This document shows, piece by piece, positions 3,919-42,855 of a DNA stretch of 64,000 nt. Under the pieces are notes generated by a model that was not told the DNA's origin, searched no databases, and saw nothing but the letters and a program-made list of their open reading frames with translations. Numbering within the stretch: position 1 is the stretch's first letter; every line of letters starts with the position of its first letter. The position numbers and the translations under genes are program-made. Source of the DNA: Cytophagales bacterium (GTDB lineage: Bacteria > Bacteroidota > Bacteroidia > Cytophagales > Spirosomataceae); NCBI GenBank assembly GCA_013298215.1, contig JAAFKE010000001.1, positions 72,692-136,691 of the forward strand, in the 5' to 3' direction.

Positions 3919-5154
3919 ATGGCGCTAAACTACATTTGGGTAGCCTTTTTTGTGATCGCGTTCTTGGTTGCGCTGGTCAAACTCATTTTTTTTGGCGACA
4001 CCGAGGCGTTCAAGCTCATCGTCGAAGCCATGTTCGACTCGGCCAAGGTAGCCATCGTGGACGTGGCCATTCCGCTGGCGGGCGTAATGACCTTTTTTTT
4101 GGGCATCCTCAACATCGGCGAAAAAGCGGGGGCTATCAACTTTTTGGCGCGCATCATCGGCCCGTTCTTCAACAAATTGTTTCCCGAAGTACCCGCCAAC
4201 CACCCTGCCAACGGGCAAATGATTATGAATTTTTCGGCCAATATGCTCGGCTTAGACAACGCCGCCACGCCGTTTGGCCTCAGGGCCATGCAGAGTTTGC
4301 AAGAGCTTAATCCGCAAAAAGACACCGCCTCCAACGCCCAAATTATGTTTTTGGTGCTCCATACATCGGGGCTAACCATTATACCACTCAGTATTATGGC
4401 GCAGCGAGCCATTTTGGGCGCAAAAGACCCCTCCGATATTTTTATCCCCTGCCTGGTAGGCACATACGTGACAACGGTGGTGAGTATTTTTTTGGTGGCC
4501 ACCTGGCAAAAAACCAACCTCCTAAACCGCACCGTGGTGGGCTGGTTGGGGGGAGTCACCACGGGGCTGTCGTTGTTGCTCTGGTATTTGTCGGGCCTCA
4601 GCAAAGAGGGCCTCGAAACGTTCTCGAAAGTAACGGGCAACTTGATCCTGATGGTAATCATCGTGTCTTTTTTGTTGGGTGCACTCCGCAAGAAAGTAAA
4701 CGTATTCGAGACCTTCATCGAGGGTGCCAAGACGGGTTTTGAGACATCGGTCAAAATTATGCCCTATCTGGTAGGTATGTTGGTGGCCATCAGCGCGTTC
4801 AGAAATTCGGGGGCAATGGGCTACGTGGTAGATGGCTTCAAGTGGGCTATCTTTCAAACGGGCATGAACACCGACTTTGCCGATGCCCTGCCCGTGGCAC
4901 TGATGAAACCCCTCAGCGGTTCGGGTGCGCGCGCCCTGATGATCGACTCGATGAAGGAGTTTGGGGTCGATTCGTTTGTGGGGCGATTAGTATGTATTTT
5001 TCAGGGATCTGCCGACACTACCTTCTACATCATTGCGCTGTATTTTGGCTCGGTGGGCATTCGCAACACCCGATACGCCATTGTGGCTGGCCTGGTGGCC
5101 GATTTTGTTGGAGTCGTTGCGGGAATATTACTGGGCTATTTTTTCTTTCATTAA
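3919..5154 (+). CDS. SpmA-SpmB fusion, nucleoside-recognition (GATE) domain membrane protein
   Basis: 411 residues, strongly hydrophobic with about ten membrane segments. The N-terminal half (1-205) resembles spore maturation protein A, including MNFSANMLGLDNAATPFGLR at about 103-122, the hallmark N-x-x-G-L-x-N-A-A-T-P motif of the nucleoside recognition (Gate) domain. The C-terminal half (from about 215) resembles SpmB, ending with ALMIDSMKEFGVDSFVGRL and the FQGSADTTFYI region. In Bacillus these are two genes; fused forms are common in Bacteroidota, which do not sporulate. The transported or sensed ligand is not established. The gene is alone between a convergent pair and the SDR. Confidence 0.85.
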   Translation: MALNYIWVAFFVIAFLVALVKLIFFGDTEAFKLIVEAMFDSAKVAIVDVAIPLAGVMTFFLGILNIGEKAGAINFLARIIGPFFNKLFPEVPANHPANGQMIMNFSANMLGLDNAATPFGLRAMQSLQELNPQKDTASNAQIMFLVLHTSGLTIIPLSIMAQRAILGAKDPSDIFIPCLVGTYVTTVVSIFLVATWQKTNLLNRTVVGWLGGVTTGLSLLLWYLSGLSKEGLETFSKVTGNLILMVIIVSFLLGALRKKVNVFETFIEGAKTGFETSVKIMPYLVGMLVAISAFRNSGAMGYVVDGFKWAIFQTGMNTDFADALPVALMKPLSGSGARALMIDSMKEFGVDSFVGRLVCIFQGSADTTFYIIALYFGSVGIRNTRYAIVAGLVADFVGVVAGILLGYFFFH

Positions 5155-5260
5155 GTATGGGTTAAAATTTACTTATTATAAATTTAGTGTTATAAAATAC
5201 TGGTAATCAGAAAGTTGAAAATATCTTCAAACATAAACTAAATATTAACGGGTACTTAGC

Positions 5261-6064
5261 ATGAAACTGACCGATAAAATTGCGCTCGTAACGGGAGCGG
5301 GCAAGGGCATTGGCCGCGCCATAGCCGAGGGTTTTGCCAGCCAAGGCGCAATTGTGGTGGTAAACGACCTACCCAACAGCCCCGATGCCCCCGACACGGT
5401 GGCCGCCATCAGCGCCAAGGGCGGCCAAGCAGTTTTTTTTGGGGGCGATGTATCAAAAACAGCCGAAATTGATGCGTTGTTCGAGCGGATAAAAAACACT
5501 TTTGGGCGCTTAGACGTGTTGGTAAACAACGCTGGCATTACGGGCTGGGGAACGGTCTGGGACACGTCGGAAGAAATGTTTGATGCCGTGATGAACACCA
5601 ACTTGAAGGGTACTTTTTTTTGCAGCGTGGCAGCGGCTCGGCTCATGCGCCACCCAAACAACGGTGGCAGTATCATTAATATTTCGACCAAGGCGGCTTC
5701 TTTGGGCATCAAAAACCTGTCGGCCTACGCCGCCAGCAAGGGCGGAATCCACGCCCTCACCAAACAATTTGCCGTGGAGCTCGCTCCCCACAATATTCGG
5801 GTAAACACCTTTGGGCCAGGCGCAATAAACGTAGAACGAAACCTCCACGACGACCCCGACTACGCCACTCACTGGGGCGCGGTCATTCCGATGGGGCGCA
5901 CCGGCCAACCCGAAGAGATGGTGGGACCCGCCATTTTTTTAGCCTCCAACGATTCATCTTTTGTAACTGGCCAGCTTTTCTACGCCGACGGCGGGTGGTC
6001 GGTACAGGGCAGGCTTCCCGAAAACTCGTTGGACGCGCAACTAAAAAGCAACGAGGGCAAATAA
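5261..6064 (+). CDS. SDR family NAD(P)-dependent oxidoreductase
   Basis: A classical short-chain dehydrogenase of 267 residues. It has TGAGKGIG at 11-18 for the dinucleotide, NNAG at about 89-92, an active-site NIST segment (S142/T143) and Y156-A-A-S-K160. An Asp-like end to the second strand (VVVNDL, about 31-36) suggests preference for NAD over NADP. The C-terminus keeps FVTGQLFYADGG, the usual substrate-loop end. Similar proteins are annotated as glucose 1-dehydrogenase or 3-oxoacyl-ACP reductase-like, and the sequence does not settle the substrate. It stands alone, about 100 bases after the Spm fusion and followed by 260 bases of gene-free DNA. It could serve the catabolic genes further along, but proximity does not show this. 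Confidence 0.85.
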   Translation: MKLTDKIALVTGAGKGIGRAIAEGFASQGAIVVVNDLPNSPDAPDTVAAISAKGGQAVFFGGDVSKTAEIDALFERIKNTFGRLDVLVNNAGITGWGTVWDTSEEMFDAVMNTNLKGTFFCSVAAARLMRHPNNGGSIINISTKAASLGIKNLSAYAASKGGIHALTKQFAVELAPHNIRVNTFGPGAINVERNLHDDPDYATHWGAVIPMGRTGQPEEMVGPAIFLASNDSSFVTGQLFYADGGWSVQGRLPENSLDAQLKSNEGK

Positions 6065-12041: not shown

Positions 12042-13229
12042 ATGGAAAAACAGACCAAAGCCATACGCATACAAACGCCCAGAACGCAGTACCGCGAGCA
12101 CTCTACGCCGCTGTTTCTGACGAGCAGTTTTACTTTTGAGAGTGCCGAGCAGGGCCAAGGTCTCTTTGAGGAAACAATCGACGGTAATATTTATAGCCGC
12201 TTCTCGAACCCGAACGTAACCGAGTTTGTGGACAAGGTTTGTATGCTCGAAAACGCCCAGGAAGGCATTGCCACCGCCACGGGTATGGCGGCGGTGTTTG
12301 CAAGCATGGCCGCTTTGCTCAAAACTGGCGACCACCTGCTGGCCAGCCGCGCCCTGTTTGGGTCGGCGCACCAAATTATTACCCAAATACTGAGCAAGTG
12401 GGGCATAACCTACACCTACTTAGACGCGTCGGCGAGCGAAGCAGACTGGGAAGCGGCCATTTTGCCGAACTCAAAGATGATTTACCTCGAAACGCCCTCA
12501 AACCCAGGCTTAGAATTGGTAGATCTGGCCATGATTGGGCGACTTTGCAAAAAACACAACCTTATTTTCAACGTCGATAACTGCTTTGCTACGCCCGTCG
12601 TACAAACTCCAACCGATTTTGGTGCCGACCTCATTATTCACTCCGCCACCAAATACATGGACGGGCAGGGCCGCGTTTTGGGAGGTATTGTGGTAGGAAA
12701 GGCGGAATACATTGCACCCATTCGGTTTTTTTGCCGGCACACGGGGCCGTCATTGTCGTCGTTCAACGCCTGGACGCTCTCCAAGAGTTTAGAAACCCTC
12801 CACCTCCGCATGGAGCGCCACTGCGCCAACGCCATGCAGTTGGCAACGGCATTGGCCAACCACGCGGATGTGCTCAAAGTAAACTACCCTTTTTTGGAGT
12901 CGCACCCGCAGTATGAGCTGGCCAAAGCCCAAATGAGCGCTGGCGGTGCCATCGTAACGATCGAACTCGAAGGCGGTTTTGAGAGAATCAGCGCGTTTAT
13001 GGCTGCCCTCAAAATTGCGTCGCTGTCATCGAACCTCGGCGACTCGCGCACCATCGTGACCAATCCGTTTACGACCACCCACGCCAAACTCAAAGCCGAC
13101 GAAAAAGCCGCCCTCGGCATCACCGAGGGGTTGGTCAGAATTTCGGTGGGCTTGGAGGCCATCCAAGACCTTATCGAAGACTTCACCAACGCAGTGGAGG
13201 CAAGCGCGGGCGTTTTTGAGGAAAATTAG
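12042..13229 (+). CDS. metZ: O-succinylhomoserine sulfhydrylase-like Cys/Met metabolism PLP enzyme
   Basis: 395 residues of the Cys/Met metabolism PLP family. The PLP lysine is K204 in IHSATKYMDGQGR, and YSRFSNPNVTEF (about 51-62) and ETPSNPGLELVD (about 150-161) are conserved family segments. In this family MetZ joins sulfide with O-succinylhomoserine or O-acetylhomoserine to give homocysteine, the final step of direct sulfhydrylation. Its place inside the sulfate-reduction operon, right after the transporter and before cysH, favours sulfide incorporation over cystathionine synthase or lyase activity. Confidence 0.85.
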   Translation: MEKQTKAIRIQTPRTQYREHSTPLFLTSSFTFESAEQGQGLFEETIDGNIYSRFSNPNVTEFVDKVCMLENAQEGIATATGMAAVFASMAALLKTGDHLLASRALFGSAHQIITQILSKWGITYTYLDASASEADWEAAILPNSKMIYLETPSNPGLELVDLAMIGRLCKKHNLIFNVDNCFATPVVQTPTDFGADLIIHSATKYMDGQGRVLGGIVVGKAEYIAPIRFFCRHTGPSLSSFNAWTLSKSLETLHLRMERHCANAMQLATALANHADVLKVNYPFLESHPQYELAKAQMSAGGAIVTIELEGGFERISAFMAALKIASLSSNLGDSRTIVTNPFTTTHAKLKADEKAALGITEGLVRISVGLEAIQDLIEDFTNAVEASAGVFEEN

Positions 13230-13257
13230 GACAAATTATACTTGAAAAATAGGTTTA

Positions 13258-13956
13258 ATGGGTGTTGAAGAATTAAATAACTTACTTGATAGAGATAACA
13301 TAGTCAGTTCGTTGCAAACGCTCGCGGCTATGTTTCCAGAACGAGTGGTGTTTTCGAGCAGTTTGGGCTACGAAGACCAGGTAATTACCGACCTGATCTG
13401 CCGACACGGCGTGGGCATCTCGATTTTTACGCTCGATACGGGACGGCTTTTTGAAGAAACCCACAACGTGCTGCAACGCACAAACCGACGGTACGACGCG
13501 CAGATCGAAACGTTTTTTCCCGCCACGTCGTCGGTCGAGCAACTGGTCAGCAGCAAGGGGCCGTACAGTTTTTACGAGTCCGTAGAAAACCGCAAAGAAT
13601 GTTGCTTCATCCGCAAAGTTGAGCCACTCAACCGCGCCCTCGCCGGCGCCAAAGTGTGGGTAACGGGCATCCGCGCCCAACAGTCGCAGAGCAGGCAGGC
13701 TGTGCCACAGTTAGAGTGGGACGAGGCAAAGCAGCTGTTCAAATTTCACCCGCTGATCGATTGGAGTATTGAGCAGGTGCGCGCCTACATCGATGCCAAC
13801 AATGTTCCCTTCAACTCATTGCATAACAGCGGCTTTGTGTCGGTTGGTTGCGCACCCTGCACCCGCGCCGTAAAAGCTGGCGAGGACTTCCGCGCGGGAC
13901 GTTGGTGGTGGGAAGACGAAAGCAAAAAAGAGTGCGGGCTGCACGAAAGAGGATAA
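13258..13956 (+). CDS. cysH: Assimilatory adenylyl-sulfate (APS) reductase, CysH family
   Basis: 232 residues. It reduces activated sulfate to sulfite using thioredoxin. It carries the four iron-sulfur cysteines diagnostic of the APS-using type, C115-C116 (KECCFIRK) and C198/C201 (GCAPCTR), plus the catalytic cysteine C226 in KKECGLHERG. SSSLGYEDQVITDL near the N-terminus is the PP-loop-like nucleotide site. The APS type needs no APS kinase, which agrees with the absence of a cysC gene or CysC domain in the operon. The next step, sulfite reductase, is not in the window. Confidence 0.93.
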   Translation: MGVEELNNLLDRDNIVSSLQTLAAMFPERVVFSSSLGYEDQVITDLICRHGVGISIFTLDTGRLFEETHNVLQRTNRRYDAQIETFFPATSSVEQLVSSKGPYSFYESVENRKECCFIRKVEPLNRALAGAKVWVTGIRAQQSQSRQAVPQLEWDEAKQLFKFHPLIDWSIEQVRAYIDANNVPFNSLHNSGFVSVGCAPCTRAVKAGEDFRAGRWWWEDESKKECGLHERG

Positions 13957-13992
13957 AAGATTCATTAAAATAGTGAGAATTAAACAGTGGCA

Positions 13993-14928
13993 ATGAAAAA
14001 TCGAGGTGTAAACGAAGACCAACAACCGGCAAGCATGGACGCGCTTGACTACTTGGAAGCGGAGGCGATCCATATTTTACGCGAAGTAGCTGGCCAATTT
14101 GAACGACCCGCCCTGCTGTTTTCGGGTGGTAAAGACTCCATCACGCTCGTGCATTTGGCCTTGAAAGCATTCAGGCCTGGCAAGTTTCCGTTCCCGTTGG
14201 TGCACATAGACACGGGACATAATTTTAAGGAGGCCACCGATTTTAGGGACACGCTGGCGCAAAGTTTGGACGAAAAACTGATTGTTCGGTACGTGGAAGA
14301 CACCATTCGTACCAAAAATTTGCAGGAACAAACGGGTAAAAATGCCACCCGAAATTGGTTGCAAACCTTCACGCTTTTAGATACCATCGAGGAGTTTGAG
14401 TTTGATTGTTGCATTGGCGGCGCACGCCGCGACGAAGAAAAAGCCCGCGCCAAAGAACGCATATTTTCGTTTCGCGATGAGTTTGGGCAGTGGGATCCTA
14501 AGCGGCAAAGGCCCGAGCTGTGGGATTTGTTCAACGGTAAAATTCAAAAAGGCGAAAACGTGCGGGTGTTTCCGATCTCTAACTGGACAGAAATGGACGT
14601 TTGGAACTACATTCGGCGCGAGAAAATTGGCCTGCCACCCATTTATTTTTCGCACCAACGCGAAATGATCCTGCGCGACGGCCACCTGTTGGCCAACTCG
14701 GCGTTTATTCAGAAAGACCCCGACGACCAGATCGTGACGCGGCAGGTGCGCTTCCGAACGGTGGGCGACATGACCTGCACCGCCGCCGTAGAATCAGAGG
14801 CGGTGCTGATAGACGACGTAATTGCCGAAATTATGGCCACCCGCGTGAGCGAGCGCGGCGAAACCCGAATTGACGACCAGCAAACGGAGGCCGCCATGGA
14901 GGATCGTAAAAAAGGAGGCTATTTTTAA
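13993..14928 (+). CDS. cysD: Sulfate adenylyltransferase subunit 2, CysD
   Basis: About 311 residues. It is the catalytic ATP-pyrophosphatase subunit of ATP sulfurylase, forming APS from sulfate and ATP with energy from CysN. ALLFSGGKDSITLVHLALKA contains the SGGxDS PP-loop, HIDTGHNF follows, and CIGGARRDEEKARAKERIFS and the DVWNYIRREKIGLPPIYFSH segment are characteristic. Start choice is uncertain: a GTG at 13987, this ATG, or an ATG at 14035 (MDALDYLEAE) that gives the usual family length of about 297. It lies 12 bases before cysN. Confidence 0.95.
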   Translation: MKNRGVNEDQQPASMDALDYLEAEAIHILREVAGQFERPALLFSGGKDSITLVHLALKAFRPGKFPFPLVHIDTGHNFKEATDFRDTLAQSLDEKLIVRYVEDTIRTKNLQEQTGKNATRNWLQTFTLLDTIEEFEFDCCIGGARRDEEKARAKERIFSFRDEFGQWDPKRQRPELWDLFNGKIQKGENVRVFPISNWTEMDVWNYIRREKIGLPPIYFSHQREMILRDGHLLANSAFIQKDPDDQIVTRQVRFRTVGDMTCTAAVESEAVLIDDVIAEIMATRVSERGETRIDDQQTEAAMEDRKKGGYF

Positions 14929-14940
14929 AAAATAAAACAC

Positions 14941-16209
14941 ATGGATTTACTCAGATTTATTACCGCTGGCAGCGTCGATGACGGCAAAAGTACGCTCATC
15001 GGGCGGCTGCTCTACGACACAAAATCGGTGCTAACCGACCAGATGGATGCCATAGAACGCGCCAGCAAAACCCGCAACCAAGCCCAGCAAACAAACGCCC
15101 CGATCGACCTGGCGCTGCTCACCGACGGCCTGCGCTCCGAACGCGAGCAGGGAATAACGATCGATGTGGCCTACAAATACTTCCAAACGCCAACGCGAAA
15201 GTATATCAGCATCGACGCGCCCGGCCACATACAATACACCCGAAACATGGTCACGGGGGCATCGAACGCCGACCTGGCCGTTGTTTTGATTGATGCCCGC
15301 CACGGGGTGATCGAACAAACCAAGCGGCACTCGCTCATTGCAAGTATGCTGGGCATCGAACACGTGCTGGTGGCAGTCAATAAAATGGACTTGGTGAACT
15401 ACTCAGAAAGTGTGTTTCTGGACATTGCATCGACCTACAAATTGTTGGCCGAAAGTTTAAAAATCAATAACCTAACAATCATTCCCGTGAGCGCGCTGAA
15501 CGGCGACAACGTGGCCACCAAAACCACCCAGATGACTTGGTACGCGGGCGAGTCGGTGTTGGAACACCTCGAGAACGTACAGATTAGGCAGGGAGTGAAC
15601 GTGGCCGATGCCCGTTTTCCGGTGCAGTACGTTATTCGCCCGCAAACAGCGGCACTGCCCGACTACCGTGGGTACGCGGGAAAACTACTGAGCGGCGTAC
15701 TAAAAAAAGGCGACGAAGTGACGGTACTACCGTCGGGGCGAAACACGCAAATTGAAAGCATTGAGTTTGGCGAAAAAGAAATAGGGGTGGCCATTGCGCC
15801 GCAGTCGGTGGTGCTGCACCTCAAAGACAACCTCGACATAAGCCGGGGCGACATGGTTGTGCCGACCAATAACCAACCAATTCTGAGCCAAGACATTGAC
15901 ACCATTGTGTGTTGGATGGACGACCGCAAAGCCCTCAGAGTGGGCAATAAATATGTCCTTCAACACGGGGTGGCCAGGGTGCGGTGCGTCGTAAAAGCCA
16001 TTGACTATAAAATAGACGTGAACACCTACGAAAAAAACTCGGCTCCCAACGAATTGCTCCTCAACGATGTGGCCCGAATTACGCTCCGATCGGCCACCGC
16101 CCTACCCTACGATTCGTACACCCAAAACCGCGCCAACGGAACAATGATTCTGATTGACGAAACCTCCAACATAACCGTTGGGGCTTGCATGATCGAAGAA
16201 CGAAAGTAA
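14941..16209 (+). CDS. cysN: Sulfate adenylyltransferase subunit 1, CysN GTPase
   Basis: 422 residues, an elongation-factor-like GTPase that activates CysD. Motifs: GSVDDGKSTLIGRLLYDTKS (P-loop), the switch region EREQGITIDVAYKYF, DAPGHIQYTRNM (G3) and NKMDLV (G4). The beta-barrel domains follow, and the protein ends without a CysC kinase domain, unlike the CysNC fusion. It is the last core gene of the sulfur operon. The following CpcT-like gene begins 42 bases after the stop and may be read through. Confidence 0.96.
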   Translation: MDLLRFITAGSVDDGKSTLIGRLLYDTKSVLTDQMDAIERASKTRNQAQQTNAPIDLALLTDGLRSEREQGITIDVAYKYFQTPTRKYISIDAPGHIQYTRNMVTGASNADLAVVLIDARHGVIEQTKRHSLIASMLGIEHVLVAVNKMDLVNYSESVFLDIASTYKLLAESLKINNLTIIPVSALNGDNVATKTTQMTWYAGESVLEHLENVQIRQGVNVADARFPVQYVIRPQTAALPDYRGYAGKLLSGVLKKGDEVTVLPSGRNTQIESIEFGEKEIGVAIAPQSVVLHLKDNLDISRGDMVVPTNNQPILSQDIDTIVCWMDDRKALRVGNKYVLQHGVARVRCVVKAIDYKIDVNTYEKNSAPNELLLNDVARITLRSATALPYDSYTQNRANGTMILIDETSNITVGACMIEERK

Positions 16210-16251: not shown

Positions 16252-16833
16252 ATGAAAAAAATACTTGCACTGATGCTGGTCGTAATGGGCCAGCTCGCCG
16301 TGGCTCAAAGCGCGACAAAAAGAGATTTCAAGAAATTACTCAAAACACTTCCTGGCGAGTACGACGCGCCGCAAATGCACATTTTAATTGCCAAAGTAAA
16401 CGTGCCTACCCTGGGCGAAAATGTGTTTTATACCCGGTATTTCGACAAAGTAAAGGCCAAACGCTACCGCCAACGCCTGCAATCGTGGAATTTTAAGGAC
16501 GGAACAATAACCCAGCAGTCATTTAGTGTCGTACCAGATTCGCTGTACGACAACCTCCACCAGCACCCAGAAAATATCAGTGCGGTCGCAAAAAACCTAA
16601 AACCCAGTTTGGAGTGCGCCTCCGTGTGGCAAAAGACTGGCGACCATTTTGAAGGAACCATCCGCGACTGCCCCATGTATTCGGAACGCCGCAAGGGCAA
16701 TATTTTAATTTCTGACAAGCAGTACCTGAGCTCAAAAGCCCTCAAAACCAGCGAGTGGGCCAAAGATCAGTCGGGTGCTATTTTGTTTGGAGATGCCAAC
16801 AAGTACGCCCTCGAACTACAAAAAGTAAGGTAG
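16252..16833 (+). CDS. Exported CpcT/CpeT-like protein
   Basis: 193 residues from the ATG at 16252, with a signal peptide ending near AVAQ. The mature part follows the CpcT/CpeT layout: LPGEYDAPQMH, then YTRYFDKVKAKRYRQRLQSW in place of the usual EQ-Y-PYRQR segment, then PSLECASVWQKTGDHFEGTI and a C-terminal SEWAKDQSGAILFGDANKY. In cyanobacteria these are phycobiliprotein bilin lyases; Bacteroidota have no phycobilisomes, so here the fold must do something else, perhaps lipid or tetrapyrrole handling. An in-frame ATG 42 bases upstream lacks a signal peptide immediately after it and is less likely. It follows cysN closely but probably belongs with the next genes or stands alone. Confidence 0.72.
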   Translation: MKKILALMLVVMGQLAVAQSATKRDFKKLLKTLPGEYDAPQMHILIAKVNVPTLGENVFYTRYFDKVKAKRYRQRLQSWNFKDGTITQQSFSVVPDSLYDNLHQHPENISAVAKNLKPSLECASVWQKTGDHFEGTIRDCPMYSERRKGNILISDKQYLSSKALKTSEWAKDQSGAILFGDANKYALELQKVR

Positions 16834-16857
16834 AAATCGCTTGATTCAAATATAAAA

Positions 16858-16882
16858 AAATGGTTAAATTCATTAACTATTT
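16858..16882. promoter_or_regulatory. Putative MarR operator palindrome
   Basis: AAATGGTTAA (16858-16867) and TTAACTATTT (16873-16882) are inverted repeats matching at nine of ten positions around ATTCA. The site lies 42 bases before the MarR start and just upstream of TATATTTA (16886-16893), a one-mismatch -7 box, so a bound dimer would cover the -33 region. MarR regulators typically bind such AT-rich palindromes to repress their own operon. Confidence 0.5.
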
Positions 16883-16924
16883 CTCTATATTTACGGGCAA
16901 AATGCGATAAGTTAAGATCAGTAG

Positions 16925-17428
16925 ATGTCGAACAAAAGCAGAAATAGCCCCGTTTTTTTGGAGAAAACGATAGATTTGAGCTTGATCTTCAATATTTTAG
17001 ATTTAGCCAACCAGCTCAAAGCAAACGGCGATAAAATTTGCCAGCAGTACGGCGTAACGACCCAACAATGGCTCATTTTGCTGCACCTGGCGCACGACCC
17101 GAATATTCCTTATTTTGAACGGCAGGAGCACTCGCTACCGATTTTGGCCTCCGAACTGGCCGAATCGCTCAGTGTAACCCGCCCCAACGTGACGAACTTG
17201 CTCCAGACGTTGTCGCAGAAAGAGCTCATCGAACAAATGGCCGACCAGACAGATGCCCGCCGAAAGCGGCTCATGCTCACCGAAAAAGGGTGGGAAGTTG
17301 TGAGGCAGATCCAGCCGATCAGAATACGCACCAACGAATGGTTGTTCGAGGACTTTGACGGCCCTCAAAAAAAAGAATTTCTGAATTTTCTGCAAGGTTG
17401 CCTAACCCGAATCACCCACGCAAAGTAA
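16925..17428 (+). CDS. MarR family transcriptional regulator
   Basis: 167 residues with the winged-helix MarR pattern: a recognition region ILASELAESLSVTRPNVTNL followed by LLQTLSQKELIEQMADQTDARRKRLMLTEKG, where the DxR wing motif DARRKRLMLTEKG is diagnostic. MarR proteins usually repress neighbouring genes until a small, often aromatic, ligand binds. The gene lies six bases upstream of the exported VOC gene, so the natural targets are itself, the VOC gene and the DUF1838 gene. A palindrome in its promoter is a good operator candidate. Confidence 0.9.
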   Translation: MSNKSRNSPVFLEKTIDLSLIFNILDLANQLKANGDKICQQYGVTTQQWLILLHLAHDPNIPYFERQEHSLPILASELAESLSVTRPNVTNLLQTLSQKELIEQMADQTDARRKRLMLTEKGWEVVRQIQPIRIRTNEWLFEDFDGPQKKEFLNFLQGCLTRITHAK

Positions 17429-17434
17429 GCAAAT

Positions 17435-18538
17435 ATGAAAAAGCGGCTATTGATCCTGCTGTTGGTTTGGACAAAAATTTCGGCCCAAAACCTGCCCGAA
17501 ACGGGCATTAGTGGCGTTTATGAAGTGATGACCGCCGTGAAAGACGGCTCGTTTGCGGTCAGGTACTTCAATGAATTTGGCTTTACCGTTCGCGACTCTG
17601 CCGTTTTTTCGGCGGCTCAGGCCAAAGAACTCTACGGGGTTGAGTCGAAACTGACTTCGTACCGGCTACAAAACGGGGAGATCGATTCGCACGGGCTGCT
17701 TCGGATTTGGGTCTGGGAAACCCCCACTGGCGAGGGCGTGGGCTACGCAATGCCCGAAACCATTGGGCAACGAATGGCCGTGACGATGACCCACGACATT
17801 ATTAGACTGGTGGACGTTTATAAATCGGAGCGCGCAAATGGCCAACGGTGGTTGCCGATCGATCCTATTTTTGACGATCCGCTGAAGGTAAACGTTGGCA
17901 AAAAAATTGACTTTTTCAACCGCCCCGTGGGTGTGCGCGAAACGGCTGTTTACGGCGACTGGTTTACGCACGTTTTTTTTCAGCGCTACGGCTACGACAT
18001 CCCAGGCTACGGCACGGTGGCGGCGAGTTCGCCGCTGAAAAGTTCCGAGTTTACGCACCACGATTTTATTATCAAGGGCGATATTGACCAAGTGACGCGC
18101 TACTACTCGGAGGCGCTGGGCATGAAACCCGAGCAAAAAGAACACAGCATAGACGGCGACTGGCTGAAAGGCCCAAAACAGGTTTTTCAGATGCCCGACG
18201 GCTATTCGCACGACTACCGGGGGTTTGTGTCGCCGAATAATATTTGCGGAAAACTCAAATTTTTTGTGCCGCGCGCCACCAAACCCGACCGCTCCGACCA
18301 CCAACGGGTGGGCGAACTTGGCATTACGGCGCACTCTTTTTATACCGCAAAGTTGGAGATGGTGTACGCAAACGTTCAAAAAATGGGAATAAAATCGACC
18401 AAAATTTTAAAAAATGAGTTCAACGAAAACGCGTTTGTATTCGTGGGGCCAGACGGCGCAACGTGGCAGATTATCGAGAAAAAACAAACGAGGCACCAAC
18501 CTTTGCTCAAATTAGAAACCAAGTTCAACAAAAACTAA
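17435..18538 (+). CDS. Exported double-VOC (glyoxalase-fold) protein
   Basis: 367 residues with a signal peptide (cleavage near ISAQ). Two VOC modules can be traced: one at about 25-150 (GVYEVMTAVKDGSFAVRYFN start) and one at about 205-350 (HHDFIIKGDIDQVTRYYSEA, later FVFVGPDGATWQIIEKK). VOC enzymes bind a divalent metal between paired beta-alpha-beta modules and act as lyases, dioxygenases, epimerases or binding proteins. An exported form is unusual. It is preceded by MarR (6-base gap) and followed by DUF1838 (13-base gap), a clear small operon. A second protein of the same architecture is encoded at 46449-47498. Confidence 0.8.
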   Translation: MKKRLLILLLVWTKISAQNLPETGISGVYEVMTAVKDGSFAVRYFNEFGFTVRDSAVFSAAQAKELYGVESKLTSYRLQNGEIDSHGLLRIWVWETPTGEGVGYAMPETIGQRMAVTMTHDIIRLVDVYKSERANGQRWLPIDPIFDDPLKVNVGKKIDFFNRPVGVRETAVYGDWFTHVFFQRYGYDIPGYGTVAASSPLKSSEFTHHDFIIKGDIDQVTRYYSEALGMKPEQKEHSIDGDWLKGPKQVFQMPDGYSHDYRGFVSPNNICGKLKFFVPRATKPDRSDHQRVGELGITAHSFYTAKLEMVYANVQKMGIKSTKILKNEFNENAFVFVGPDGATWQIIEKKQTRHQPLLKLETKFNKN

Positions 18539-18551
18539 ACCAAAAAGCACA

Positions 18552-19481
18552 ATGAAACGCATCATAACCAGCGCCACCCTCCTACTCTTGCTCACCTTCG
18601 GGGGAGCCCAAGCTCAGAAAAAAAGCAAGGCAGCGGCCGCCCCCACTCCGCCGCCGACGCTCGACCTGAGCAATCCGACCGATGCCATGAAAGCCAGCCG
18701 CAAGATTACGTCGTCGCTCAAAGACGGCGAAAGTTGTTTTTATTATTGGACAGGAAACGTTTTCAGCCGCGTGCCTGGCGAGAAAGACCGGCTGCTGTTT
18801 ACATACGTGGCCATGAACGCCCGCGCCAGTGCCACCGTGCTCGACGAACAAAAAGGCTACGGCTGGCGGCACGTGTCGCGCGAGGTGCTGTTTTACCAAG
18901 ATCCAAAAACGAAGGAAATCCTAAAAAAATGGATGAACCCCTGGACAAACAAAGAAATTGACGTGATACACATCGCAAACGACCCCGTGAACGGACGCGG
19001 CACGTCGTTTTCGATGGGACAAGACGGCAAAACGCCCTTCAAACTGGCGGGTTTTGAGAAAGATGGCTACTGGTTTCAGCTCAACGAGGTGCCGCTGTTT
19101 TATAGCAATCCGCTCGGTGGCGACTACCAAGAACAAATTGGTGGCACTTACCAGGCCATGGAGATTTTTCAGACCATGACCCCCATGAGCGAGCTCCTGG
19201 ATGCCTCCAAAGACAAAACCGAAAATAGCCTCATCGCCTGGTCGCGGGTGTCGAAATGGTTGCCGTGGCTCGACATGGGCGACCGCACGGGTCAGATGAT
19301 TTTCACGGGGATTGGTAAGAAAGTAAAATCTTTCGATGATTTCCCCGAGGAATTGAGAAACGAAATCAAGGCCAACTACCCCATTTACGCCACCGCGCCA
19401 CCCACCGACGACACGCGCCCCAACGAAACTTCGTGGACGTACTACAAAAAACTGATGGAAAAGAAGAAATCGGGCAAATAG
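18552..19481 (+). CDS. Exported DUF1838 family protein
   Basis: 309 residues with a signal peptide ending near AQAQ and a short Lys/Ala/Pro-rich linker. The core has the DUF1838 hallmarks: FYYWTGNVFSRVPGEKDRLL, REVLFYQDPKTKEILKKWMN and VIHIANDPVNGRG, then WSRVSKWLPWLDMGDRTGQM and a C-terminal AP-rich tail. The function of the family is unknown; in other bacteria it tends to be seen near genes of ring-compound or lipid catabolism, which I state from memory. It is the last gene of the MarR-VOC-DUF1838 operon and ends before a strong terminator. A more divergent paralogue is at 39151-39936. Confidence 0.82.
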   Translation: MKRIITSATLLLLLTFGGAQAQKKSKAAAAPTPPPTLDLSNPTDAMKASRKITSSLKDGESCFYYWTGNVFSRVPGEKDRLLFTYVAMNARASATVLDEQKGYGWRHVSREVLFYQDPKTKEILKKWMNPWTNKEIDVIHIANDPVNGRGTSFSMGQDGKTPFKLAGFEKDGYWFQLNEVPLFYSNPLGGDYQEQIGGTYQAMEIFQTMTPMSELLDASKDKTENSLIAWSRVSKWLPWLDMGDRTGQMIFTGIGKKVKSFDDFPEELRNEIKANYPIYATAPPTDDTRPNETSWTYYKKLMEKKKSGK

Positions 19482-35887: not shown

Positions 35888-36571
35888 ATGGCATACAAAC
35901 AACTTGTTTCGAGTACGCAATCCGCACCATTGTTTCAAAAAAATGTGGCACTCGTTGCGCTGGTCGTACTTATATTGGCAGCTTGCGCAAGCTCAAAAAC
36001 CACCAAAACCAACGACCTCCAACTTTATTTGAGCTACCTCACTGGCGACTTCGACAACCAGGCTCAAATTGACCAACAACTAAAAACTGGCAAGCAGCTA
36101 CACCCGTTGGCAAAACACATCACGCGGGTTATAACCGACCGCGTGGCCAACGTCCCCGCTGGCTACAAGGGCGTTTTTGTGCTGGAAGAAAGCTACTACA
36201 CATCCCCCAACCAAGAGGTACAGGTGAAACCCTACATCTTTAAATTTTTGCTGGACGAGGCGGGCAGGGTCGTACTTCACTCGATTGGGATTCCCGCCCG
36301 AATAGACAAAAAAACGTTTACCAATAACAACCCAAGCTGGTCGCTCGATTTTTCTGAGCTCACCGAATCGGCTTCTTTCAAAGCGGTAGCATACACCAAA
36401 ACGCCGCGCGGTTTTTATATTAAGGCTCCCAACGATTTGCCTAACGGCATAAAGTTTACCCTCGAAGAAACAATCGGCGACGGTTTTTTGGAGGTGATGG
36501 AACTGGCCGAGAAAAACGGCAAACGGCTCACCCCCTACGAAACGCCGATCCAATATTTGAGAACAAAATAA
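35888..36571 (+). CDS. Lipoprotein with possible distant CpcT/CpeT resemblance
   Basis: 227 residues with a lipobox LAAC (about 30-33) after a hydrophobic segment, so anchored to a membrane. The start LQLYLSYLTGDFDNQAQIDQ and the KGVFVLEESYYTSPNQE segment recall the conserved N-terminal part of CpcT/CpeT proteins, but the downstream half is different and the match is weak. Function is unknown. It starts a plus-strand run with the racemase homologue (24-base gap), nitrilase, DUF1838 and ALDH genes. Confidence 0.6.
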   Translation: MAYKQLVSSTQSAPLFQKNVALVALVVLILAACASSKTTKTNDLQLYLSYLTGDFDNQAQIDQQLKTGKQLHPLAKHITRVITDRVANVPAGYKGVFVLEESYYTSPNQEVQVKPYIFKFLLDEAGRVVLHSIGIPARIDKKTFTNNNPSWSLDFSELTESASFKAVAYTKTPRGFYIKAPNDLPNGIKFTLEETIGDGFLEVMELAEKNGKRLTPYETPIQYLRTK

Positions 36572-36595: not shown

Positions 36596-38089
36596 ATGAA
36601 ATATACGACACTATTCGCTTTGGGTATGTTGGTATCGGCGCGCGTATGCGGCCAAAGTATCGACGATGCCATGCAAAACCCAAAAAACTTTTACTACGTC
36701 GATTTTAAAAAATACCCCATCGAAGACAAAACCCTCCCCGTTGGCGTGTTCGATTCGGGTACGGGCGGCCTGACTGTTTTGAACGCGATTGTGAACTTCG
36801 ATAAATTCGTAAACCAGACTGGCAAAAGTACGCCCGATGGCAAGCCTGACTTTGCAAAGGAAAAATTTATATACCTGGCCGACCAAGCCAATATGCCCTA
36901 CGGCAACTACGCCGCCGCTGGCAAAACCGATCTGCTGCAAGAACACATACTGAAAGATGTACAGTTTTTGCTCGGCAACAAATACTACCAAACGGGCAAG
37001 TCTGCTGGGTACGAAACCAACAAGGAGCGCTTAAAAGTACTGGTGATAGCCTGCAACACGGCCACGGCCTACGGACAAAGTAAGATCGAAGAATACTTAC
37101 AAAAAGTGGGTTTACCCATCAAAGTCATTGGGGTTATAGATGCGGGTTCGCGGGGGGCTTTGCAGACTTTTGCCAAAGACGAAAGCGGTAGCATTGGTAT
37201 TTTTGCCACCGCTGGCGCGGTTTCGTCGCAGGGCTACGACCGTGCCATTCGGCGGTTTCAGGCCGAGCTGGGTTTCACGGGTCAAATTCAGTTGTTTGGG
37301 CAAGGAGGTGTGGGCCTGGCCGAGGCCATAGACGAAGACCCCAACTTTATAAACCGAACCGCGCAAGCACCCCGAGAGTCTTACCGTGGGCCGAATGTGT
37401 CGAACCCTAACCTGTTAATAGACAAACAGTTGCTAAAAATATATAATTTTGATTACAACCAACAAAAGATGCTCTGCGATGCCGCCAAAGTCGATGATTG
37501 CAGCCAACTACAGATCAACTCTGCCGAAAACTACGTGCGTTATCACTTGGTGACGCTGCTCGAAAAAATGCGCCAAACGCCCTCGGTGTTGCCGCTAAAA
37601 ACACTCATTTTGGGTTGTACGCACTACCCGTACATGGCCGAACCCATCGAAAAAGTATTGGCCGAACTGCGCAATTACGAAGAAAACAACCAGCCGCGCT
37701 ACCGACATTTACTGGCTCCGAAAATAACCCTGGTTGATCCCGCCGTGAACACCGCCCGCGAGCTGTACGACTATTTATACACCTCAAAATCGTTTAACAA
37801 TGGTGCCGACATGGCCACCCAAAGTGAGTTTTACATTAGCGTACCAAACGCACTAAACGGCAACATCAAAACCGAGGCCGACGGACGTTTTACGTATGAC
37901 TACAAGTACGGACGCAGCGCAAATGAACTACAAGAGTATGTAAAGTTTGTACCTTTCTCCAAACAAAATATATCGGAAGACGTGGCCGACCGCCTCCGCA
38001 AGCAAATTCCGAATACTTTTGAGCTCATCAAGCAGTTCGGACAAAACAACAAAACACTTTTCTTAGATACCTCCGCCCTAAAACATTGA
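36596..38089 (+). CDS. Exported glutamate racemase (MurI) homologue, extended form
   Basis: 497 residues with a signal peptide (MLVSARVCGQS near 11-21). It shows the full MurI signature: PVGVFDSGTGGLTVLNAIVN (D53-S54), ADQANMPYGNY, VIACNTATAYG with catalytic C153, GVIDAGSRGAL, GIFATAGAVSSQGYDRAI and LILGCTHYPYMAEPIE with catalytic C341. Standard MurI has about 270 residues and is cytosolic; this protein is nearly twice as long, with insertions between the halves and a long C-terminal extension, and it is exported. It may racemise glutamate, aspartate or a related acid in the periplasm. It is followed by the nitrilase gene, whose ATG is six bases after its stop. Confidence 0.8.
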   Translation: MKYTTLFALGMLVSARVCGQSIDDAMQNPKNFYYVDFKKYPIEDKTLPVGVFDSGTGGLTVLNAIVNFDKFVNQTGKSTPDGKPDFAKEKFIYLADQANMPYGNYAAAGKTDLLQEHILKDVQFLLGNKYYQTGKSAGYETNKERLKVLVIACNTATAYGQSKIEEYLQKVGLPIKVIGVIDAGSRGALQTFAKDESGSIGIFATAGAVSSQGYDRAIRRFQAELGFTGQIQLFGQGGVGLAEAIDEDPNFINRTAQAPRESYRGPNVSNPNLLIDKQLLKIYNFDYNQQKMLCDAAKVDDCSQLQINSAENYVRYHLVTLLEKMRQTPSVLPLKTLILGCTHYPYMAEPIEKVLAELRNYEENNQPRYRHLLAPKITLVDPAVNTARELYDYLYTSKSFNNGADMATQSEFYISVPNALNGNIKTEADGRFTYDYKYGRSANELQEYVKFVPFSKQNISEDVADRLRKQIPNTFELIKQFGQNNKTLFLDTSALKH

Positions 38090-39117: not shown

Positions 39118-39150
39118 ATTTACAGACCTAATATTAACTCCTTGAAAAAC

Positions 39151-39936
39151 ATGAAAAAGCTACTACTCACGTTCGTACTCTCGACCGTTATTTGCGCGGC
39201 AACCTCCCACGGCCAAAGCATGGCCTGGAACCAAGAAATTTTCGATGCTTGGGTGAACATGCGCGTCGGCGACGGCAAGAGCAACGCCATTTGGTGGTGC
39301 CAAGGAGAGGTGTACTCTTACCCGGCTGGCAAACTGGTGGCGCGTATGGAGGGCATCGACCACGGAACAGTACTGAAAGTGGCCAAAGACAGCGTATTGC
39401 AGCTCAACCGCAAGACTTTCACCTACCACGACCTAAAAACCAACGAGATTATTACCGAGGGCATGGGGCAAAAATTGGCTCCCATTGCCTACGACTACCA
39501 AAAAATAACCTACGCGCTCCGCGACGGCAAACTTAAAACGTGGGTAGAACAGGGCGGCGGCGCGCGCCTCACCAAAATGGGGCCAGGCGAGAGCATAACC
39601 GTTCGCAAAACGGGCGAAACTTTTATCTGGACTGCACCCGTTTTTCTTGATTTTACAACGCCGCGCGGCAAGTACGAGGCATACGAAAACTACGATTTTT
39701 TCTACACGCCATCGCTCAAAACCACCAAAGAAAAATACCAGCTCACCTGGGAGCGGTACGGCGATATTCCAGCGGCCATTGGTGGCGGGAAAGGCATTAT
39801 CCACTTGGTTTGCTACCGCGTAGATCGCATCGAAGACTTGCCATCCGACGTTTTTAAGCGTTACCTGAAAGAAAAAGCCCCCATGTGGCTCAACCCGCCA
39901 AAAGACCTGGCCGAAATTGCAGAAATGCAGAAATAG
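39151..39936 (+). CDS. Exported DUF1838 family protein, divergent paralogue
   Basis: 261 residues with a signal peptide ending near SHGQ. Weaker DUF1838 pattern: FDAWVNMRVGDGKSNAIWWC, QGEVYSYPAGKLVARMEGID, NRKTFTYHDLKTNEIITEGM, and a C-terminal part where WERYGDIPAAIGGGKGIIHL and YRVDRIEDLPSDVFKRYLKE correspond to the W-E-x-P...G and D-LP segments of the protein at 18552-19481. It lacks the NDPV hallmark. Function is unknown. The ALDH gene starts eight bases after it. Confidence 0.65.
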   Translation: MKKLLLTFVLSTVICAATSHGQSMAWNQEIFDAWVNMRVGDGKSNAIWWCQGEVYSYPAGKLVARMEGIDHGTVLKVAKDSVLQLNRKTFTYHDLKTNEIITEGMGQKLAPIAYDYQKITYALRDGKLKTWVEQGGGARLTKMGPGESITVRKTGETFIWTAPVFLDFTTPRGKYEAYENYDFFYTPSLKTTKEKYQLTWERYGDIPAAIGGGKGIIHLVCYRVDRIEDLPSDVFKRYLKEKAPMWLNPPKDLAEIAEMQK

Positions 39937-39944
39937 AAACGTTA

Positions 39945-41375
39945 ATGGCTACATCTGAACAAAACACAATTTCGGTTCGCAACCCGCGTACTGGGCAAAC
40001 CGACTATACCTTTTTTGTGCCATCGGCAACGGCATTAAACCACACCTGCACCCAACTACGCGCAGGCCAAGTTGGCTGGGCAAAATGCTCAATAGATGAC
40101 CGAATTGCGGTGATGCAGCAGTGGAAAACCGAGGTCGAAAACCACAAAACAGAACTCGTGGAGGCGCTCTGCGCCGACACTGGCCGCCAGTGGGAAACCC
40201 TCCTCGAAGCCGACATTGTGGCCTCGTCCATCGACCGTTGGTGCAGTATCTCAAAGGCTTTCTTCGCAACGCCCATTCGCAAAGCAAGTTCCATTCCTTT
40301 TCTTGAAATCCAACAAGATTTAGTACCCTACCCGCTGGTGGGGGTCATCAGCCCGTGGAACTTCCCGCTGCTTTTGTCGCTCATCGACACCATTCCAGCC
40401 CTGCTGGCGGGCTGCGCGGTGGTCGTGAAACCGAGCGAAGTTACCCCCCGTTTTGTAGAAGTTATCAATAAAACCATCGCCGCCGTTCCCTTCTTGGGCT
40501 CCGTTTTGGCCTACGTGCAAGGCGCGGGGCACACGGGCGCGGAGATCGTAAACAACGTCGATTTGGTCTGTTTTACTGGCAGCACCGCCACGGGCCGCAA
40601 GGTATATCAGGCCGCCTGCGACCGATTTATTCCCGTTTTTTTAGAACTCGGCGGCAAAGATGCGGCCATCGTTTTGGCGGGTGCCGACCTACAATTGGCC
40701 ACCTCGGCGCTGCTCTGGGGCAGCACCGCCAACGCTGGGCAGTCGTGCCTGTCGGTGGAGCGGATATACGTACAAAGCACCATCTACGAGGAATTTGTGG
40801 AACTACTGACCCAAAAAGCCAGTGCCGTTTCGTTGGCGTTTCCTGCCATGAACGACGGCAAAATAGGCCCCATTATTTCTGACAAACAAGTGACGATTAT
40901 AGACGACCACCTGCGCGATGCCCTCGAAAAAGGAGCCAAAATAACTACGGGCAGCACCCAATGCCAGAACCTCGGCGGTGGGTACTACTGCCGCCCCACC
41001 GTGCTGACCAACGTGAACGATTCTATGAAAATAATGACCGAAGAAACCTTCGGCCCGCTGATGCCCGTGGTTGCCTTCGATACCATCAGCGACGGCATCG
41101 CCCTGGCCAACTCGACTGTTTACGGCCTCAGCGGGGCAGTTTTTGCCCAAACTACCGCGCAAGCCATCGAAGTTGGTCAGCAAATGCACTGCGGAGCGGT
41201 GAGTATAAACGATGCCGCCCTGACGGCCATCATGCACGAGGGCGAAAAAAACTCCTTCAAAATGTCGGGGATTGGCGGTACGAGAATGGGGCCGTCGGCC
41301 ATTAAGCGGTTTATGCGCCAAAAAGTCTTTTTGATTAAAAACAACACCGCCCCAGATCCTTGGCATTTTGCTTAA
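39945..41375 (+). CDS. Aldehyde dehydrogenase family protein
   Basis: 476 residues from the ATG at 39945. Conserved catalytic groups are present: SPWNFP (N139), the VKPSEVTP cofactor loop, FTGSTATGRKV, E234 in LELGGKDAA, and nucleophile C268 in NAGQSCLSVERIYV; TEETFGPLMPVVAF is also standard. It oxidises aldehydes to acids with NAD(P). It ends the plus-strand run; the stop overlaps the convergent DUF1460 stop by four bases. Which aldehyde is oxidised is unknown, but proximity to the nitrilase and DUF1838 genes suggests a catabolic intermediate. Confidence 0.93.
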   Translation: MATSEQNTISVRNPRTGQTDYTFFVPSATALNHTCTQLRAGQVGWAKCSIDDRIAVMQQWKTEVENHKTELVEALCADTGRQWETLLEADIVASSIDRWCSISKAFFATPIRKASSIPFLEIQQDLVPYPLVGVISPWNFPLLLSLIDTIPALLAGCAVVVKPSEVTPRFVEVINKTIAAVPFLGSVLAYVQGAGHTGAEIVNNVDLVCFTGSTATGRKVYQAACDRFIPVFLELGGKDAAIVLAGADLQLATSALLWGSTANAGQSCLSVERIYVQSTIYEEFVELLTQKASAVSLAFPAMNDGKIGPIISDKQVTIIDDHLRDALEKGAKITTGSTQCQNLGGGYYCRPTVLTNVNDSMKIMTEETFGPLMPVVAFDTISDGIALANSTVYGLSGAVFAQTTAQAIEVGQQMHCGAVSINDAALTAIMHEGEKNSFKMSGIGGTRMGPSAIKRFMRQKVFLIKNNTAPDPWHFA

Positions 41376-42202
41376 TTCAGCAACCGACCCACGATGATGC
41401 CCGTGTGTTTGTCGATGCGGTTGAGGTAATCGGCCAATGGCTCGCTGCTCAAAACCACCTTTTTCTTTTCGGACGAGGCGTGCAACAAATGCGCCCTTTT
41501 GCCGCGCATCACCACGAACCCTTGGTGGTTGCAGTCCAACCCAGGCACACCCGACGTGATCCCGATCAGGTCTCCGTCTTGGAGTTTTCGTTCAATTTTG
41601 GCCACGTCTTTTTTGGGAATGTAGTACCTACGGGCGGCGTTTAGCGCAGCTTCGTACCTTTTCAGAGAATCCAGAACAGGCTGGGTATTTATTTTAGGGT
41701 ATTTTTCGGAGTTTTGGGTCATGTAATTAATCGGTTTGTCGAACACAACACCGCCCAGATCGCTGGTTACGTCGGCAAAAATTTTGTTTTTTTCCGCCTC
41801 TTTCAGCCAATCGGCAAAATAATGAATCCGCGAGGCGTAGCCCCTCACCGTGCCTCCGTGGTAACGCAGTTTGGTGAGTGTCTCCCTAAATCTTTCGTTC
41901 AGTACGTATCTGTCCCCCCGCGAGCCAGGAGTGTTTGCGGCCATCGCAACGGCAACCATCGTTTCTACAAAAGTGGCGCAGTCGTAAGAACGCACGTTCA
42001 CGATCAACCTTTCGTGCTTGTACTGGTTCAACGTATTACCTTCGTAGGGTGTATTGACCTGCAACTGCGCCGTAAAAACGAGGCTGTTTCGGGCGTTTGA
42101 GCCGTACACTACATCGAGTATGCCGTTTTGGCCGTCCATAACCTGGCAATCGGCACGAAGTGCGGCCAGAAAAATAAATAAACAGACAAATATTTTTTTC
42201 AT
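41372..42202 (-). CDS. DUF1460 family exported amidase-like protein
   Basis: 276 residues from the Met at 42202, with a signal peptide. It has the DUF1460 pattern: VRSYDCATFVETMVAVAMAA with the candidate catalytic Cys, YHGGTVRGYASRIHYFADWL, and PGLDCNHQGFVVMRGKRAHL with the candidate His. The family is a permuted or distant NlpC/P60-like cysteine peptidase predicted to act on cell-wall peptides. It follows a bidirectional terminator, so it is likely transcribed separately from the glycine-rich gene upstream. Confidence 0.82.
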   Translation of the reverse strand: MKKIFVCLFIFLAALRADCQVMDGQNGILDVVYGSNARNSLVFTAQLQVNTPYEGNTLNQYKHERLIVNVRSYDCATFVETMVAVAMAANTPGSRGDRYVLNERFRETLTKLRYHGGTVRGYASRIHYFADWLKEAEKNKIFADVTSDLGGVVFDKPINYMTQNSEKYPKINTQPVLDSLKRYEAALNAARRYYIPKKDVAKIERKLQDGDLIGITSGVPGLDCNHQGFVVMRGKRAHLLHASSEKKKVVLSSEPLADYLNRIDKHTGIIVGRLLN

Positions 42203-42210
42203 AAACATAA

Positions 42211-42238
42211 AAAAAGGCGGCCTTCCAGCCGCCTTTTT
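42211..42238. terminator. Bidirectional intrinsic terminator
   Basis: AAAAAGGCGGC (42211-42221) and GCCGCCTTTTT (42228-42238) pair perfectly around CTTCCA. On the minus strand it lies 13 bases after the stop of the glycine-rich protein gene and just before the DUF1460 start. Confidence 0.9.
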
Positions 42239-42251
42239 ACTGAAAGTGTAT

Positions 42252-42779
42252 TTATTTACGTCCACCAAAAAGGCCGCCCGCTATGTTCATTATGTCGCCC
42301 ATGTCGAGTTTTCCGTCGCTCATTGCGGCCGAACCCGAACTCATAAGCGAGCCAAAATCAAAACCGCCCGCTTGGGGGTTAGTGGCCTGGCCTACGATGC
42401 TACCCACATCTACACTGCTGTCGTTGGGGTCGTTGGCTTTGTTTATCAGCTGGCTCATCACCATCGGAATCAACGAGCTGGCTATGCCGGCTGCCGCGCT
42501 GTTTGATATTCCAAATTTTTGCATCAGACCACCTACTGCGCTCTGTACCATGCCGCCTACAATCGGGTTACCTGCCAAATTGCCAGCGCCTTGTCCTCCA
42601 CCGAGTAGGCTCATCAGTCCGCCCAAGTTGCCTTCGGTAGCCTGTTGCTGGAGCCCGCCCATCACAGAACTCATCACGGTTTGCATAGCGCTATCGTTGT
42701 GTTCGTTCGGAATGGCTGGGTTATTGATAATTGCGTCACCAGCGTTTTGCTTTACCAGATTGAATAATGTCTCTAACAT
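42252..42779 (-). CDS. DUF937-like glycine-rich protein
   Basis: 175 residues rich in Gly, Met, Ser and Asn with short amphipathic repeats (MSSVMGGLQQQATEGNLGGL, LGGGQGAGNLAGNPIVGGM, GISNSAAAGIASSLIPMVMS). The region FGISNSAAAGIASSLIPMVM resembles the DUF937/YidB core, where a Gly-Leu helix pattern repeats. There is no signal peptide. Function is unknown. It ends in a strong terminator and may be a separate transcription unit from the NamZ gene 76 bases upstream. Confidence 0.7.
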   Translation of the reverse strand: MLETLFNLVKQNAGDAIINNPAIPNEHNDSAMQTVMSSVMGGLQQQATEGNLGGLMSLLGGGQGAGNLAGNPIVGGMVQSAVGGLMQKFGISNSAAAGIASSLIPMVMSQLINKANDPNDSSVDVGSIVGQATNPQAGGFDFGSLMSSGSAAMSDGKLDMGDIMNIAGGLFGGRK

Positions 42780-42855
42780 TGTTTTTTTTGATTCGATTTA
42801 AAAAATAGGTTGTTTTAGGACTTTTGATTGCAAATCCAGATGTAATTTACGACTC

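Follow-up and report, generated by a model that had tools for sequence, protein, structure and literature searches.

Exported VOC and DUF1838 proteins in a Cytophagales bacterium as part of a larger co-inherited gene set with a possible role in pigment catabolism

The genes considered here lie at positions 16252-19481 of a 64,000-nucleotide (nt) stretch of contig JAAFKE010000001.1 (positions 72,692 to 136,691, assembly GCA_013298215.1) from a Cytophagales bacterium of the Spirosomataceae; the whole stretch is called the window, and positions are counted from its first letter. The initial annotation had placed four genes there, all on the + strand, and its coordinates are correct: a predicted exported CpcT-like protein of short form (CpcT1, 16252-16833, in a reading frame that opens at 16210), a MarR-family regulator (16925-17428), a predicted exported VOC protein (VOC1, 17435-18538) and a predicted exported DUF1838 protein, modelled as a beta-barrel (18552-19481). 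The spacing within the MarR-VOC-DUF1838 operon is 6 and 13 nt, also as described. The family labels of these three proteins hold, all being over their Pfam cut-offs: the regulator belongs to the winged-helix family MarR_2 (41.9 bits against 27; 1.1e-10), VOC1 matches Glyoxalase PF00903 at 29.9 bits against 20.6 over residues 211-346 only, and the DUF1838 protein matches PF08894 at 235.8 bits against 25. N termini resembling signal peptides were recognized by eye on the CpcT-like, VOC and DUF1838 proteins and not on MarR.

Two of the labels call for comment. No Pfam model matched the window CpcT-like protein directly, and it is recovered at 65.7 bits by a profile built from 12 relatives excluding it. 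Seven of the 13 aligned CpcT1 proteins match the Pfam CpeT/CpcT family (PF06206, best 3.5e-34), and the CpcT1-family profile matches PDB 4o4o, the phycocyanobilin lyase CpcT, at 1.1e-10; the window copy is tied to this family through the profile alone. The description of VOC1 as a double VOC protein is sound by sequence for the C-terminal half only; the N-terminal half appears as one beta-alpha-beta3 module in a poor AlphaFold2 model (mean pLDDT 62), and the two halves gave no alignment with each other in a profile comparison. In the VOC1 alignment H208, H209 and H300 are invariant and E348 is near-invariant, and these four residues are possible metal ligands.

The distribution of these genes indicates that they belong to something larger than a four-gene locus. 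DUF1838 is sporadic: 8 of the 150 family genomes have a match, as do 6 of the 296 sampled from the phylum, one of the phylum matches being below the cut-off (the own genome is counted in both samples). In the family sample, DUF1838, VOC1, a second CpcT-like protein (CpcT2) and HapK (PF11639) are found in the identical 8 genomes with no exception either way, HapK passing its Pfam cut-off in all 8 and in no other of the 150. The chance of drawing the same 8 genomes twice is 2e-13 if the genomes are treated as independent, and 5e-7 at the level of genera (6 of 36); the relatedness of the genomes makes the true figures larger. In the phylum sample, VOC1 occurs in 5 genomes, the own one included, and these are exactly the genomes with DUF1838 over the cut-off. 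The association of VOC and DUF1838 is beyond chance, and the co-inheritance bears out the original view that it is functional. The association is real and larger than had been stated: the scattered operons described below very probably form a single pathway unit, which related bacteria have or lack as a whole. As a side observation, the G128 assembly has its DUF1838 gene broken across two frames (L022/L075, around 4760-5600), whereas VOC1, CpcT2 and HapK are intact there.

Gene order is less constant than gene content. VOC1 directly adjoins DUF1838 in four other genomes (L017, L019, L020 and L021), yet adjacency is not universal, the two genes being 6-30 kb apart or on separate contigs in f18, G053, G430, G006 and G128. 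In two genomes of the lineage f18 (loci L024 and L026), DUF1838, HMGL, LeuC, LeuD, CpcT1, CaiB, VOC1, CpcT2 and an aldehyde dehydrogenase (ALDH) are clustered together, flanked by the divergently oriented genes for LeuCD', HpaI, HapK and SDR and by DUF3598; L025 has the same order through VOC1, near the end of the stretch examined. It had been proposed that VOC and DUF1838 act as consecutive or cooperating factors of a periplasmic pathway. As a two-step path standing by itself, this reading is too narrow; the two proteins are better seen as one piece of a pathway of at least 15 genes, among them genes for uptake and for cytoplasmic-type enzymes. A wider genome scan gave 80 DUF1838 loci, including loci in Acidobacteriota, Proteobacteria and Neomarinimicrobiota; a VOC gene, often of another VOC type, lies within 10 kb in 29 of the 64 long loci, as a raw count. 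We also noticed that a methyltransferase-domain protein with a short unknown protein after it (clusters 35/49; L152:2935-4538, L172:4358-5928) recurs beside HyuAB/VOC1 or beside PuuE and an isochorismatase-type amidase (ISOC), and in Proteobacteria near DUF1838.

A shared palindrome hints at how the scattered operons may be tied together. A candidate MarR operator, ATGGTTAAATTCATTAACTAT (16860-16880, core 16863-16877), has its core 47 nt upstream of marR, and the sole other exact match to its core within the window is a second candidate, GTAGTTAACTTATTTAACTAT (58734-58754), located 80 nt upstream of a TonB-dependent receptor gene (83 nt for the core). On contig C52 of the own genome (G000) a third core lies 29 nt upstream of a DUF3598-LeuCD'-HpaI-HapK-SDR operon. 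The scan for the motif RTTAAnnnnnTTAACT covered 149 kb of own sequence and the pathway loci of other genomes. It gave 3 sites in the own sequence against 0.2 expected from shuffles, a statistic that is not blind, as the marR site supplied the motif, which was then relaxed once further sites had come to light; all three sites are just upstream of pathway operons, those of MarR-VOC-DUF1838, TonB and HapK. No match was found upstream of the window CpcT2 or LeuC genes. The palindrome also occurs twice in G053 and twice in f18, between divergent pathway genes; these are the lineages besides the own where a MarR relative was seen at the loci, and no palindrome occurs at the loci examined of lineages where MarR was not seen. 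Pathway clusters of G053 and G183 contain relatives of MarR (43-45% identical), placed beside VOC in the former and beside PuuE/nitrilase in the latter. The proposed control by MarR gains support from the palindromes at the own operons and from these relatives; it is not universal, as the genera g28 and g36 have TetR within their pathway clusters and MarR was not seen there. From motif positions and gene neighbourhoods, it is probable that one MarR regulon spans at least three of the scattered pathway operons of this bacterium.

The initial annotation had also pointed to a recurrence of the same ingredients at 36-47 kb of the window. The recurrence is real but remote, and the 36-48 kb genes are members of one and the same set. 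CpcT2 (35888-36571, +), which has a lipoprotein-like N terminus, is weakly related to CpcT1 by profile comparison. A carbon-nitrogen hydrolase of the nitrilase/amidase superfamily (PF00795, 38086-39117, +) adjoins CpcT2 in DUF1838-positive genomes and not at the loci read in genomes without DUF1838; since nitrilase is present in 33 of the 150 family genomes, it is not diagnostic by itself. The next gene (39142-39936, +) encodes a remote DUF1838 paralogue with no Pfam match of its own, whereas PF08894 matches its relatives in L023, L033 and L042 at 41-54 bits; the Pfam DUF1838 model finds a single gene in the own genome. The ALDH (PF00171, 39885-41375, +, the actual start possibly downstream) is a conserved neighbour of nitrilase/CpcT2. 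On the - strand lie a type III CoA transferase of the CaiB family (PF02515, 44028-45251), which is below the cut-off of NCBIfam dicarboxylate CoA-transferase models and co-clusters with DUF1838 in f18; a DinB-superfamily protein (PF12867, 45229-45780), a possible pathway member with a 60% identical relative adjoining a dihydropyrimidinase (DHPase) gene in G053; a LeuD/DmdB-type hydratase small subunit (45907-46386; TIGR02087, 197.6 bits against a cut-off of 108.95); a second predicted exported VOC protein (46449-47498; PF00903, residues 213-346); and a LeuC/HacA-family hydratase large subunit (47522-48766; TIGR01343, 534.8 bits against 385.7), which is likewise found in DUF1838 clusters. Neither subunit reaches the 3-isopropylmalate dehydratase equivalog cut-off (LeuC 453.6 against 610.65 bits, LeuD 192 against 245.85).

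Less securely, a TonB/MFS block at 54-58.7 kb is part of the same set. It comprises, all on the - strand, an uncharacterised protein that recurs beside DUF1838 (53865-54623; neighbourhood cluster c37, 5 members including that of the window), an MFS transporter (PF07690, 54548-55810) that clusters with MFS genes near DUF1838, and the TonB-dependent receptor (PF00593 and Plug, 55888-58653), which clusters with receptors beside DUF1838. Other genes lie among or next to these. A predicted exported MurI-like protein of the Asp/Glu racemase family (36596-38089) stands between CpcT2 and the nitrilase and had no counterpart in the pathway clusters read in other genomes. Genes that by eye resemble DUF1460-, DUF937- and DUF1343/NamZ-type proteins (41372-44031) lie, on the - strand, between pathway genes. 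An FAD_binding_2 oxidoreductase (52374-53852) lies beside c37, MFS and TonB, and a similar-looking FAD protein adjoins HMGL in G027 (L213:906-2366). Immediately upstream of the CpcT-like gene, at 12042-16209, is a sulfate-assimilation-like block (cysH-, cysD- and cysN-like genes and a Cys/Met-metabolism enzyme).

Further members lie elsewhere in the own genome. Contig C52 encodes SDR, HapK, HpaI, LeuD', LeuC', DUF3598, an HMGL-type lyase and a full-length CpcT paralogue, as well as a VOC protein in which two stretches match Glyoxalase. In the stretches read of the other 7 family genomes, HapK and SDR occur together in all, HpaI in 6 and LeuCD'/DUF3598 in 5. An ISOC gene adjoins a PuuE-type hydrolase gene on C2, and a second PuuE gene is on C23. 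Amidases, LeuCD-type hydratases and lyases are present in most DUF1838 genomes checked, and a cyclic-amide hydrolase is present in 12 of 12. This hydrolase is either of the PuuE type (G000, G006, G128, G162, G183, G280) or of the DHPase type (G027, G053, G064, G076, G087, G430), never both, a complementary split that would arise by chance once in 924 over genomes and once in 70 over genera. From this pattern it seems that either of two unrelated enzymes serves the same pathway step. Imide hydrolases occur in both families (PMC9304392, PMC4437985): HxnM, related to the cyclic imide hydrolase (CIH) of P. putida, is a cyclic imidase (PMC9304392), phthalimide is hydrolysed by DHPase (PMC4437985), and maleimide, going by a title cited in PMC4437985, is hydrolysed by an imidase from animals that belongs to the cyclic-amidohydrolase family.

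From what is observed directly, namely co-inheritance, gene content, family assignments and motif positions, we infer an order of steps, a mode of repression, export and a substrate. A catabolic pathway with an imide-to-diacid logic is the likelier interpretation of the enzyme families. In such a pathway, the TonB receptor would import a large N-heterocyclic molecule, which the exported CpcT-like and DUF1838 proteins would bind or process and which the exported VOC protein would attack, possibly as an oxygenase. The cyclic-amide hydrolase, PuuE-type here and dihydropyrimidinase-type in other lineages, would open the rings of the fragments, and isochorismatase- or nitrilase-type amidases would deamidate the ring-opened products. 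Two LeuCD-type hydratases could then hydrate the substituted diacids, CaiB could activate these, and HMGL- and HpaI-type lyases could cleave them. MarR would repress at least three operons through RTTAAnnnnnTTAACT until released by a pathway ligand. The substrate may be a pyrrole pigment, for instance a linear tetrapyrrole; phycobilins and products of chlorophyll or heme are candidates, and their rings oxidise to disubstituted maleimides.

A tetrapyrrole-derived substrate is the leading reading because the CpcT-like proteins have phycobilin lyases as relatives and the oxidation of tetrapyrroles gives maleimides; we hold it tentatively, at somewhat below an even chance. Oxidised chlorophyll and heme yield maleimides and hematinic acid, which are also found in lake sediments (PMC7318184). 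The two hydratase sets and two lyases would suit a substrate that breaks down into two types of substituted diacid, which would be the case for tetrapyrroles. By their names, two DUF1838 carriers go back to cultures of cyanobacteria: UKL13-2 (PMC5248499), which itself carries bacteriochlorophyll genes, and ULC179bin3 (PMC6202449, by strain name). This cyanobacterial association is suggestive only. The genes of the set point, without proving it, to a pyrrole pigment as the food, for example one of those that cyanobacteria shed. The full scheme, in which linear tetrapyrroles or pigments derived from chlorophyll are broken down aerobically and completely through exported CpcT-like, DUF1838 and VOC proteins and a maleimide route under one MarR, is put forward with slightly more reserve still.

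Several observations weigh against this scheme. The maleimide and tetrapyrrole activities are read from families, and allantoinases and dihydropyrimidinases belong to the PuuE and DHPase families as well. Genus g36 yielded no CpcT1, which is hence not obligatory, and CpcT folds also occur in proteins without known bilin binding, such as plant CRL. HyuA, ABH and CurA are not in every genome, as far as read. The palindrome was not found in the loci examined of G006, G128, G430, g28 and g36, only loci being covered, and heme oxygenase, bilin reductase and chlorophyllase were not recognised in a scan that covered selected families only. Finally, there is no decisive fold match for the DUF1838 model, even though its AlphaFold2 confidence is high (pLDDT 91.5). 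All matches are weak (BFA1, Z 8.6; the S-type phycobiliprotein lyase 4tq2, Z 7.5; Rv0813/Rv2717c, Z about 7; DUF3598 2o62, Z 6.1), and because numerous outer-membrane barrels match at similar Z values, we make no fold claim. By sequence, no PDB relative was found for DUF1838 or VOC1 as single sequences, or for the CpcT2 and VOC1 profiles.

The alternative that survives best, though we think it unlikely, is a cyclic imide or lactam other than a tetrapyrrole, such as a prodigiosin-like pigment, a piperidinedione or a cyanobacterial peptide. The evidence for cyclic-amide and diacid chemistry fits such a substrate equally well, and HapK, to which family the proteins here were assigned, is known from a prodigiosin gene cluster; but by itself this alternative accounts neither for two CpcT-like proteins nor for two sets of hydratase and lyase, a set-up suited to a molecule that yields two kinds of diacid. 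Rather less probable is the catabolism of lignin-like or plant-phenolic aromatics, with VOC proteins as extradiol dioxygenases, MarR as an HpaR-like sensor, and HpaI and ALDH finishing meta-cleavage. The top NCBIfam matches of MarR and HpaI are indeed the homoprotocatechuate regulator and aldolase, and VOC1 retains H208/H209, H300 and mostly E348. However, those NCBIfam matches are far below cut-off, a nitrogen-free aromatic would not need the cyclic-amide hydrolase found in every DUF1838 genome checked, and the CpcT and HapK families are left unexplained.

It is improbable that PuuE/DHPase, isochorismatase and nitrilase merely degrade allantoin, dihydrouracil or hydantoins while the remaining genes are unrelated. 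PuuE and DHPase do belong to the allantoinase and dihydropyrimidinase families and score some 240-250 bits against those models, but this is far under the curated cut-offs of 358-647 bits, and LeuCD, CaiB, HMGL, HpaI and CpcT would be unneeded, yet are co-inherited or co-clustered with DUF1838. In the equivalog scoring, which covered a single PuuE, from Proteobacteria, and a single DHPase, from Acidobacteriota, PuuE reached 252.6 bits against an allantoinase cut-off of 424.6, and DHPase about 233-251 bits against 358-647 for the DHPase/AllB equivalogs; with scores below these cut-offs, simple allantoin or pyrimidine use was set aside. Least probable of all is that DUF1838 and VOC, whose export is predicted and whose activities are putative, are envelope or pigment-detoxifying proteins that travel with the catabolic genes and do not serve them, given their exact co-occurrence and repeated clustering with such genes in Bacteroidota and the similar catabolic genes beside DUF1838 in Proteobacteria.

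DUF1838 is a family without assigned function, and by full-text search one paper names it. Exact co-inheritance with named enzymes places it in a concrete metabolic context and provides a class of substrates that can be tested. Should the tetrapyrrole reading be true, the genes would constitute a bacterial route for recycling phycobilin or chlorophyll carbon and nitrogen; no bacterial pathway for maleimide, bilin or chlorophyll catabolism was found in a literature search that covered few subscription papers. The palindrome offers a direct handle for finding the inducer.

The gene families are known ones; the literature searched did not show them combined in one co-inherited, apparently MarR-linked pathway. 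The CpcT1 relatives resemble the CpcT/CpeT phycobilin lyases in passing PF06206 and in matching the solved lyase 4o4o by profile, but they are predicted to be exported and come from chemoheterotrophs, amid catabolic genes, with no phycobiliprotein acceptor gene seen nearby, and CpcT2 and the window CpcT1 copy are very divergent. DmdAB, of the dimethylmaleate branch of anaerobic nicotinate fermentation, is a two-subunit hydratase of the aconitase family, as is the type found here, where LeuD is over the NCBIfam 'LeuD/DmdB' cut-off; the present set differs in having a CoA transferase and an HMGL-type lyase and no dimethylmalate lyase, and the upstream genes differ. Mesaconate and itaconate degradation employs CaiB and then a CitE or HMGL lyase for CoA transfer and for a citramalyl-type cleavage of C5 diacids. 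The CaiB protein here scores 192 bits for succinyl-CoA:mesaconate CoA-transferase, below the cut-off of 700, and imide hydrolysis and exported proteins would precede CoA transfer. HapK passes its Pfam cut-off here while adjoining LeuCD, HpaI and SDR, outside any prodigiosin cluster. In the fungal nicotinate route of HxnM/HxnN (PMC9304392), a PuuE/CIH-type enzyme opens a cyclic imide and an amidase follows, much as we propose here; nicotinate hydroxylase or pyridine oxygenase was not recognised in the present clusters, and it is a LeuCD hydratase, CaiB and HMGL/HpaI lyases that would come next.

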